A stretch of DNA of 35,183 nucleotides, taken from the NCBI GenBank assembly GCA_017379015.1, contig JAFNXN010000001.1, forward strand, positions 1 to 35,183, written 5' to 3'. The notes beneath the pieces are model-generated. The model did no database searches and was not told where the DNA came from. It saw only the letters and a list, made by a program, of their open reading frames with translations. Positions within the stretch are counted from its first letter, which is position 1, and each line of letters begins with the position of its first letter. Below, piece after piece: positions 11,655 through 33,898 of the stretch. This stretch comes from Alistipes sp. GTDB lineage: Bacteria > Bacteroidota > Bacteroidia > Bacteroidales > Rikenellaceae. A program made the position numbers and the translations under genes.

Positions 11655-11732
11655 TATCTTTGCCGTCGTATAAGACGGTCACTCAACATGGGCCTCATAG
11701 CATTAATGAGCTGCCCAGGTGATGAATCATCA
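11655..11732 (+). repeat. Leader element, copy 1 (promoter, palindrome, small peptide frame)
   Basis: This segment is similar to 33491-33567. It begins with a TATCTTTG -7 box (11655-11662). Next comes a palindrome, CCGTC/GACGG (11663-11667 and 11674-11678), then CAACATG and a frame reading MGLIALMSCPGDESS from 11688. In the RNA, GGGCCTCAT (11690-11698) can pair with ATGAG (11706-11710) plus GCCC (11713-11716), sequestering the start codon. Unlike the other copies, the frame has no stop and runs on, in phase, into prmA. Confidence 0.6.
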
Positions 11733-11740
11733 ATACCCTA

Positions 11741-11765
11741 TTGTATCTCAGGTGTAAAGATACAA
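11741..11765 (+). other. Hairpin in the prmA leader
   Basis: An 8-bp inverted repeat, TTGTATCT (11741-11748) / AGATACAA (11758-11765), with a 9-nt loop, followed by AAATTATTTT. It is too AT-rich for a strong terminator but could act as a leader structure between the small frame at 11688 and the prmA start. Confidence 0.35.
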
Positions 11766-11807
11766 AAATTATTTTACATAATATCACGCATAACCAATAT
11801 TTTGACC

Positions 11808-12668
11808 ATGAAGCGATACGTAGAACTATGCTTCGAGTGCGACACACTCGACAAGGCTGAGATTGCGACAGCCTTCCTTGCCGACTACGCCACCGAGAGT
11901 TTCGACACGCGCACCACGGAGAGTGGAGTGAACCTTCTTGTATATATCGCACAAGAGGAGTGGATGGCATGCCGCGAGGAGGCAATTCTCTCTATTGCCG
12001 AATATGGTCGTCTTGTGGAGGAGAGGGAGATCGAGACGGAGAATTGGAACGCCCGCTGGGAGGAGGAGAGCTTTCACCCTGTAGTTCTTGAGAATGTGGG
12101 TTGCAAGGCTCAACGCGTGGTAATACGCGCTCCACACCATAGTGTTGACATCGACGACAATAGCATCGATGTTATAGTATCGCCACAGATGTCGTTTGGC
12201 TCGGGACACCACAACACTACGCGCCTTATGTGTCGTCATATACTATCGACCGAACCACTAGATAGCCTTCTTGACGTGGGTTGTGGCACAGGCGTACTCT
12301 CGATAGTTGCCCTAAAGAGCATTGCCCAACAAGCTGACGCCATCGACATAGATCCTTGGTCGACAACAAGTGCTGAGGAGGCAGCTAGGCTCAACGGCAT
12401 AGAGTCACGCCTAAGGATTATCCTCGGCACAGTGGAGCAAATCGCGGGCAGGAGCTACGATATGGTGGTGGCAAACATCAATCGCAACATAATACTCAAT
12501 GATCTAGATCGCTATGTTGAGGCTCTCAACGAGGGTGGTTATCTGCTACTTAGCGGCTTCCTTGAGCAGGATTGCGACACGATACTACGTGCCACTGCAA
12601 CTCACAATCTACGCCTCGTAGATACCCTTTCAGATGAGGGGTGGGTGGCTCTCAAACTACAAAAATAG
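11808..12668 (+). CDS. prmA: Ribosomal protein L11 methyltransferase
   Basis: 286 residues. The C-terminal class-I SAM-dependent methyltransferase domain has motif I LLDVGCGTGVLSI, an acidic motif II (AIDIDPWS) and the PrmA-type ANINRNI motif in place of NPPY. The N-terminal domain positions L11. PrmA trimethylates several amines of L11 in the cytoplasm. The start MKRYVELCFE matches normal Bacteroidota PrmA. An upstream ATG at 11688 is in the same frame with no stop and would add 40 residues, but those belong to the repeated leader element and are probably not part of the enzyme. The WbqC-like gene follows after 12 bp. Confidence 0.93.
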   Translation: MKRYVELCFECDTLDKAEIATAFLADYATESFDTRTTESGVNLLVYIAQEEWMACREEAILSIAEYGRLVEEREIETENWNARWEEESFHPVVLENVGCKAQRVVIRAPHHSVDIDDNSIDVIVSPQMSFGSGHHNTTRLMCRHILSTEPLDSLLDVGCGTGVLSIVALKSIAQQADAIDIDPWSTTSAEEAARLNGIESRLRIILGTVEQIAGRSYDMVVANINRNIILNDLDRYVEALNEGGYLLLSGFLEQDCDTILRATATHNLRLVDTLSDEGWVALKLQK

Positions 12669-33413: not shown

Positions 33414-33478
33414 TAGTTTCGCCCCTCCCACACATACGCCTCACATCACTTATGAGCCCCTCAAGTGATGAATACTAA
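33414..33478 (+). repeat. Leader element, copy 2 (degenerate)
   Basis: It lines up with copy 3 but lacks the promoter palindrome, and its -7 box is imperfect (TAGTTTCG, 33414-33421). The peptide frame is kept: from an ATA codon at 33434 it reads I-R-L-T-S-L-M-S-P-S-S-D-E-Y and stops at 33478. The ATG start is lost, although the internal Met codon at 33452 could serve. It probably arose as a tandem duplication with copy 3. Confidence 0.55.
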
Positions 33479-33490
33479 ATACTTTTTCCT

Positions 33491-33498
33491 TATCTTTG
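33491..33498 (+). promoter_or_regulatory. -7 box of leader copy 3
   Basis: TATCTTTG, an exact match, immediately followed by the palindrome CCATCA-TAA-TGATGG (33499-33513). The palindrome overlaps the expected transcription start, so it could be an operator or the 5' hairpin of the RNA. Confidence 0.6.
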
Positions 33499-33522
33499 CC
33501 ATCATAATGATGGACCTTCAAC

Positions 33523-33567
33523 ATGAGCCTCAAGTCGCTTATGAGCCCCTCAAGTGATGAATACTAA
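33523..33567 (+). CDS. Tiny conserved peptide frame (14 residues)
   Basis: ATG at 33523, product MSLKSLMSPSSDEY, stop at 33565. The same pattern occurs at 11688 (MGLIALMSCPGDESS) and, without ATG, at 33434. Codons differ while residues stay: Leu6 is CTT here and TTA at 11703, and Ser5 is TCG here and TCA in copy 2. That points to selection on the peptide, though RNA pairing (CTCA/TGAG and GAG/CTC) is an alternative. Promoter and palindrome lie 24 bp and 9 bp upstream. Function unknown; it could be a leader peptide or a stand-alone micro-gene. Confidence 0.4.
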   Translation: MSLKSLMSPSSDEY

Positions 33568-33578
33568 ATACTTTTTCC

Positions 33579-33586
33579 TATATTTG
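33579..33586 (+). promoter_or_regulatory. -7 box of the ygbA-like gene
   Basis: TATATTTG, an exact match, 18 bp before the ATG at 33605. It lies at the end of the 42-bp repeat, in the same relative place as the box at 33491. Confidence 0.5.
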
Positions 33587-33604: not shown

Positions 33605-33898
33605 ATGAGTAAAATAGATAGGGAAAAGCGTATTGTATCAAAGATGATTGCCCTCTACTGTCGCCATAAGCTTGGAGCAAAAGAGATGCCAGAGGAGTAC
33701 AAGATGCTTGAAGAGTATGCACACAAGAGGTTGAATGGATGCAAATTTCAGGAGCAGAAGCCGGCATGCAAGCGTTGCACGATACACTGCTACAAGCCCG
33801 ACATGCGCGAAAAGATACGCGAGATAATGCGCTGGGCAGGACCTCGCATGATAATATATGACCCGATAGCAGCCATTCGCCACCTAATAAATAAGTAG
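33605..33898 (+). CDS. ygbA: YgbA-like protein (nitrous-oxide-stimulated promoter family)
   Basis: 97 residues. The Cys-rich core with spacing CKFQEQKPACKRCTIHCY, followed by KPDMREKIREIMRWAGPRM, is the family signature. E. coli YgbA is slightly longer and is regulated by the nitric-oxide sensor NsrR; its biochemical role is poorly known, and the four Cys suggest a metal site. The ATG at 33605 is chosen because the upstream in-frame extension would start inside the leader repeat. It is separated by 4 bp from the acetyltransferase gene, which overlaps msrA, making a likely three-gene stress operon. Confidence 0.8.
   Translation: MSKIDREKRIVSKMIALYCRHKLGAKEMPEEYKMLEEYAHKRLNGCKFQEQKPACKRCTIHCYKPDMREKIREIMRWAGPRMIIYDPIAAIRHLINK

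Follow-up and report, generated by a model that had tools for sequence, protein, structure and literature searches.

Short repeats that probably move into gene promoters and rebuild them in Alistipes-group bacteria

Background

Elements of the IS200/IS605 type transpose as single-stranded DNA and insert beside a short target without target duplication; they carry a hairpin near their end, and small derivatives of them exist. Promoter sequences are also reportedly copied to new places in the genome, a process associated with Matus-Garcia et al. under the names 'mobile promoters' and promoter propagation. REP/REPIN sequences with RAYT transposases (PMC8049555) share with the repeats described below that they are short, non-autonomous intergenic hairpin repeats present in many copies. 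Within the Bacteroidales, the same order as the bacteria considered here, the BrickBuilt MITE of Porphyromonas gingivalis is likewise intergenic, holds tandem repeats within a small mobile element and has promoter activity; its 23-nt repeats lie between a leader and a tail, and its terminal inverted repeats resemble those of the IS5 family (PMC4596501). In the Bacteroidota, the primary-sigma promoter consensus combines a -7 box, TAnnTTTG, with a -33 box of the TTTG type (PMC7366714).

The sequence considered here, called the window throughout, is a stretch of 35,183 nucleotides from an Alistipes sp. (Rikenellaceae; assembly GCA_017379015.1, contig JAFNXN010000001.1), the source genome being a 1.71-Mb draft in 41 contigs that is 78% complete. 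A preliminary description had taken two look-alike regions of the window, one before prmA and one before a ygbA-like gene, for a repeated promoter-leader element encoding a conserved micro-peptide. The repeated element stood and proved far wider than noted, while the encoded peptide fell away, its motif being present in 2 of 130 units. In our judgement the two sites are quite probably copies of a short, repeatedly inserted DNA element and not tiny genes. The best explanation, held with good confidence, is that they belong to non-autonomous mobile repeats of about 87-89 bp that enter and rebuild promoters in Alistipes-group bacteria. No description of this repeat family was found in searches of the open-licence PMC literature (including PMC4596501, PMC8049555, PMC7366714, PMC5704250, PMC6316836 and PMC5729914).

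Results and discussion

Copies of the repeat within the window

The two look-alike regions are present as first written, and both are recovered by an independent profile built from 38 units of other genomes with the window rows excluded (Table 1). The similarity of the two copies exceeds chance. When the covariance model introduced below was run over the whole of the source genome, 11 matches were obtained at E<=1, with the two window copies scoring best; the third was a partial copy before the full ygbA unit (E 9.2e-4), absent from the preliminary description, and the remaining eight were weaker. Activity of the unit in this host is doubtful, there being two good copies, one of them with a decayed right box.

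Table 1. Positions of the repeat units and neighbouring features in the window
Feature	Position	Strand	Basis
Left (native) -7 promoter box TATCTTTG of prmA	11655..11662	+	Direct reading; 14 unit-free congener loci have it at the equivalent place
89-bp unit inserted into the divergent promoter of xerC and prmA; right end decayed	11663..11751	+	Window-free profile matches 11655-11748, E 1.4e-8; unit-free congeners have TATCTTTG-n-AAAGATA
Palindrome CCGTC..GACGG, immediately 3' of the -7 box	11663..11678	+	Direct reading; pairing stays complete in 11 variants at other sites
Right-hand -7 box TATCTCAG of the prmA unit, decayed	11744..11751	+	Alignment with intact units; L021 has TATCTTTG at the equivalent place
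-7 box of divergent xerC (putative function)	11755..11762	-	Direct reading and congener loci
prmA (PF06325)	11808..12668	+	Pfam; translation likely starts at ATG 11808
Partial tandem copy, right part of unit	33432..33490 (59 nt)	+	92% identity to 33521-33579; covariance-model match 33414-33498
-7 box TATCTTTG preceding the full ygbA unit	33491..33498	+	Direct reading
Complete 88-bp unit preceding the ygbA-like gene	33499..33586	+	Window-free profile matches 33491-33586, E 1.7e-17
Palindrome CCATCATAATGATGG (CCATCA..TGATGG) of the ygbA unit	33499..33513	+	Direct reading; folds as a DNA hairpin
Right-hand -7 box TATATTTG, 18 nt upstream of the ygbA start	33579..33586	+	Direct reading
YgbA_NO family gene (PF11756)	33605..33898	+	Pfam

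Structure and distribution of the unit

When the ygbA copy was used to search 180 genomes of the genus, it uncovered a repeat family that is dispersed and often in tandem. Each unit consists of a palindrome that directly follows a Bacteroidota -7 box (TAnnTTTG), a variable middle, and a new putative -33/-7 promoter. Across twenty regions, the order within arrays was TTTG, palindrome, variable middle, CAAGTGnTG or similar, a T-rich spacer and TAnCTTTG. Among 112 distinct candidates, for which a hairpin and a following -7 box had been required, 53 were 87 nt and 24 were 88 nt in length. A second unit type with a different middle (alignment A2; loci L129, L150, L162, L187 and L229) was identified in genomes including Alistipes sp. 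Zagget8 and A. montrealensis, L150 and L187 belonging to A. montrealensis kh20.

A covariance model (R1) was built from a 40-unit alignment in which two rows came from the window. It gave matches at E<=0.01 in 35 of the 180 genomes, the source genome included, with a best E below 1e-8 in 24 of them. Copy counts from R1 are lower bounds, with at most 23 candidates scored per genome, and some of the genomes with weaker matches, such as G086 with its 19 weak matches, are to be taken as candidates. Among 80 of 109 stretches listed, 72 belonged to Alistipes sp., Rikenellaceae bacterium or Alistipes montrealensis. Of 101 arrays (101 sources), 65 contained one scored unit and 36 contained two to five; arrays read directly held one to three full units. 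Several arrays (L282, L287, L288, L302, L315 and L105) lie at or near contig ends, where short-read assemblies may break and leave copy number underestimated. Four stretches were located on viral contigs. Viral spread of the units was rejected, since the two stretches examined had neither full pairing nor the right end.

Filled and empty sites

Nine loci of genome G059 were compared with the sister genomes G073 and G201 by searching with their joined flanks. Contiguous empty sites were found in the sisters for six of the nine (L106, L107, L108, L265, L268 and L269); at L263 and L266 only one flank matched, and L264 gave no contiguous site. At the loci with empty sites the insert measured 87-89 bp, or 174 bp for a double unit, and its junction with the native -7 box falls within the TTTG or immediately behind it. 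The apparent movement of the units is well supported by this comparison of filled with empty sequences. Two further intergenic repeats, each in multiple copies, were noticed in the left flanks of L106 and L264; G073 and G201 matched them many times (at 30-110 and 301-410 of the query).

The boxes on either side of the insert indicate which one is native. At L106 both sisters have TATATTTG, which is also the left box of the filled site, whereas its right box is TATCTTTG. The empty sisters and the left side have TATCTTTG at L265 and at L107, where the right box is TACCTTTG and TAACTTTG, respectively. At these three loci the left box is thus the sister's native one and the right box differs, which speaks against target duplication there and for a unit that brings its own box. 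L268 leans toward a native left box (G073 has TAACTTTG and G201 has TATCTTTG, and the unit stands between TATCTTTG on the left and TACCTTTG on the right), and L108 and L269 do not discriminate between native and carried box. The target site duplication typical of a MITE of a DDE transposon was not seen at L106, L107 and L265, the other loci being non-deciding. One case is contrary: L334, the insertion that G201 shares at the L265 locus, is flanked by TACCTTTG left and right although the empty sister has TATCTTTG, so that its left box must be assumed to have changed later or to have undergone conversion. The same contrast in left boxes is seen in a second pair, L113 (G073) and L333 (G201). No terminal inverted repeats, the other mark of such a MITE, were seen by eye on the alignments, the left palindrome being unlike the right end. 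Occupied loci found in more than one species, namely those of prmA, dnaG and a gene of 205-208 aa, may reflect old inheritance.

Placement before genes and promoter boxes

Excluding the two window arrays and seven others with too little flank, an open reading frame of at least 80 aa started on the same strand within 120 nt of the array's right end in 82 of 92 arrays (median 25 nt), compared with 32 of 92 in a mirror control. Ten scanned downstream proteins belong to unrelated housekeeping families: DnaG, a LMW phosphatase, Obg, a class-II aldolase, TGT, P5C reductase, an EF-Tu/EF-G type GTPase, a queuosine synthesis protein, Rpe and PTPS. Units also occur before a DUF1295-like gene (L270 in G059, L335 in G201), the divergent neighbour of ygbA in the window, so that in intergenic regions of the DUF1295-like/ygbA type the units of other species face the other gene.

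The box TATCTTTG fits the TAnnTTTG pattern. In scored arrays, this pattern was found in 96 of 97 right boxes and 60 of 68 left boxes (one miss being a row without flank), counts that are biased by end effects of the covariance model; the difference between left and right fits selection on the gene-proximal box. A TG lies 18-21 nt upstream of the right -7 box in 118 of 127 units against a shuffled mean of 27, the units being related and not independent. The unit's -33 box is mostly ATG or GTG, with TTG in 17 of 127. Before the left -7 box a native TTG -33 is modestly enriched (14 of 68, shuffled mean 8.5).

In 14 congener loci (L015-L018, L020, L022-L024, L026, L028, L029, L034, L035 and L038) xerC and prmA are separated by a short TATCTTTG-n-AAAGATA spacer. 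This arrangement has the appearance of a bidirectional promoter, whose two -7 boxes are pushed apart by the prmA unit of the window (11655-11763), and the xerC leader would become 89 nt longer as a result. Judged by eye, unit-like inserts are present at this promoter in L021 and L025, and L027, L030, L032, L033 and L036 have partial or decayed-looking ones, while L307 (G189) has two units there. An integron attC-like reading of L021 was dropped by eye, most units being without AAC/GTT cores.

The putative leader peptide

According to the micro-peptide reading, the frame beginning at CAACATG and ending in DE is translated and regulates the downstream gene, to which it is fused in frame at prmA. 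Both window copies do encode M-x-L-x-x-L-M-S-x-x-x-D-E, with a Leu codon pair, CTT and TTA, that differs at two bases just as first reported. The ygbA copy, with its ATG at 33523, reads M-S-L-K-S-L-M-S-P-S-S-D-E-Y-stop, and the prmA-side frame from CAACATG is indeed open into PrmA (ORF 11688-12668, from ATG 11688). Single DNA folds gave some pairing around the ATG of the window copies. However, 2 of 130 units have the motif, namely the two window copies, and 4 of 130 have an ATG at the corresponding position; in 12 of 130, an ATG somewhere within positions 15-34 opens a run of at least 13 sense codons. The two-base Leu codon difference had been taken to favour selection on the peptide, yet the 11 differences between the window copies fall 6/2/3 on codon positions 1/2/3, without third-position bias. 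With up to three mismatches, the leader pattern occurs in the source genome only at the two window places, and the search of related genomes that had been suggested yielded 10 looser matches in 9 of 149 other genomes, none of the 10 after a -7 box. The conserved leader micro-peptide was rejected on the motif count, the start-codon count, the 6/2/3 spread and the placement of the looser matches, and we regard it as extremely improbable.

The open frame into PrmA can be compared with the 14 compact leaders, in which the PrmA frame has a stop within the leader in 9 and is open back to the -7 box in 5. Since a compact leader frame is open in 5 of 14, the open frame in the window is unremarkable, and the fusion looks like chance. 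The nearest homologs of PrmA align from residues 1-4 when translation starts at 11808, which is weak evidence as the query itself began there. Open frames through units, such as the one into PrmA, can be spurious, and care should be taken with them in annotation.

The palindrome and readings as RNA or operator

The palindrome lies at the left end of the unit and is typically GCATCATAATGATGC or a compensated variant of it. Its core, TCRTAAYGA, is symmetric, nearly invariant in the alignment and placed over the expected start site. Rows of the 40-unit alignment had been chosen for Watson-Crick palindromes, which biases its covariation count; an unbiased count came from a scan of the species genomes with a pattern in which the core was fixed, four pairs were left free and pairing was not required. 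Full Watson-Crick pairing was found in 79 of 84 distinct named Rikenellaceae sites, in 11 different sequences; of their 336 free cells, 331 were Watson-Crick, 4 were G-U and 1 was a mismatch. Sites in other organisms were fully paired in 2 of 8 cases (19 of 32 cells). Another -7 box at about the unit distance followed in 65 of the 84 Rikenellaceae sites and in none of the 8 others. The earlier observation that the two window palindromes (CCGTC..GACGG and CCATCA..TGATGG) differ in sequence with pairing kept holds well beyond these two sites. Palindromes after a -7 box without a recognisable unit were seen at L131, L196 and L123, and may be remnants or an independent 5' hairpin.

Compensating changes of this kind would also be expected of a small RNA or attenuator leader. 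In that reading each unit is a transcription unit whose RNA forms a 5' hairpin, a second stem and a U-run and controls the gene that follows. Within units, the middle and right parts show weak complementarity (mean -8.87 kcal/mol for own pairs and -7.85 for swapped ones, reached in 20 of 5000 permutations), and the nine sequences of the second unit type have a predicted closed stem before the T-run. Against this, the consensus fold of the 40 units contains the 6-pair palindrome only, three of the four varying pairs are outer ones that, should the -7 spacing of B. thetaiotaomicron hold here, would fall 5' of the transcription start, G-U pairs occupy only 4 of 336 cells, and the ten downstream genes are without a common theme. 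The window has no Rfam match at gathering score, and four other loci gave a single sub-threshold match (E<=0.1) located outside the units. A terminator reading of the T-run found little support, most units of the first type having no strong terminator stem by eye or in the consensus fold; it may yet hold as part of the RNA reading. A structured leader RNA is possible but disfavoured, and we consider it very unlikely. Both the scarcity of G-U pairs and the location at the expected start site speak for a hairpin or cruciform, and the palindrome would act as DNA and not as RNA.

A palindrome over the start could alternatively be the operator of a transcription factor, the units being the spread sites of a regulon. 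The nearly invariant, symmetric core at the expected start site agrees with this, as do the promoters of L131 and L196, which carry the palindrome without a recognisable unit. The arms, however, change symmetrically even within one genome, G059 having palindromes of the GCATCA, GCGTCA, CCATCG, CCATCA and ACATCA types, which fits recognition of shape and not of sequence. Moreover, whole 87-bp insertions stand before unrelated genes and are absent from sister species at the same genes. We give the operator little credence.

Turnover and subfamilies

Sequence identity was compared among 130 units from 18 genomes. Mean identity was.908 within an array (51 pairs),.745 between loci of the same genome (641 pairs) and.589 between genomes (7693 pairs), and none of 300 shuffles of the genome labels reached the same-genome mean. 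That mean varies between genomes, for example.790 in G178 and.499 in G189. Lineages amplify their own, genome-specific subfamilies.

A model of insertion and the question of the enzyme

In the mobile-repeat model, a unit oriented like the gene would enter a native TAnnTTTG -7 box, either within its TTTG or immediately behind it. At the right end the unit supplies a -33 box of the TG type, then a T-rich spacer and a TAnCTTTG of its own, so that the gene would keep a promoter near its start, and this restoration may be why insertions are tolerated. Units would then multiply in tandem as lineages amplify their subfamilies. Both boxes presumably drive transcription, and the palindrome would be recognised as a hairpin or cruciform by an enzyme acting in trans. 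Transcription from the boxes and transposition of the units are both deduced from sequence.

No mobilising enzyme was found for the units, nor was a longer autonomous copy seen in the loci read. Y1_Tnp (PF01797) was detected in 2 of the 180 draft genomes (G076 and G151), neither of them among the 35 that bear units; a search for Y2_Tnp detected 0 of 180, and likewise 0 of 14 controls. One refinement of the mobile-repeat model would have the unit moved by a tyrosine recombinase of the CTnDOT type, with TAnnTTTG as the core site. The CTnDOT integrase prefers GTANNTTTGC targets. That target has the same letters as the -7 box, and a box common to both ends of the unit is what a crossover core would lead one to expect. 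This target was, however, not found in the literature searched, a double-stranded circle of 87 bp would be very small, and by eye the unit has no inverted core partner. We consider such a recombinase unlikely. More far-reaching is the tentative idea, which we find rather doubtful, that the units represent a new class of promoter-dwelling mobile DNA. As a single-stranded hairpin, such an element would invade active promoters where the -7 region is melted, heal each insertion with its own -33/-7 boxes, build tandem promoter arrays and depend on an enzyme outside the known hairpin transposases.

If the mobile-repeat model is correct, selfish DNA in compact genomes would break a promoter only where the element supplies a replacement. 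The start sites and leader lengths of many core genes would be altered (prmA, xerC and ygbA here; dnaG, obg and tgt elsewhere), and promoter copy number would be variable, so that expression could drift through tandem gain and loss. It would also raise the question of which enzyme moves a hairpin repeat without the usual family of hairpin transposases.

Comparison with known elements

REP/REPIN sequences differ from the Alistipes unit in that the latter contains a promoter, sits at a -7 box facing the gene and occurs in genomes in which no Y1 transposase was detected. With respect to BrickBuilt, the Alistipes unit is 87 bp in length, has no terminal inverted repeats that could be seen, and inserts exactly at the -7 box. 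Like IS200/IS605 elements, the unit appears to insert by a short target without duplication and has a hairpin near its end; in contrast to them, its hairpin borders immediately on the target, which is a promoter box, and PF01797 was not found in the unit-bearing genomes. Compared with mobile promoters, the Alistipes unit is a defined element: it has a palindrome, enters at an exact point, grows in tandem and occurs at sites that can be found both filled and empty.
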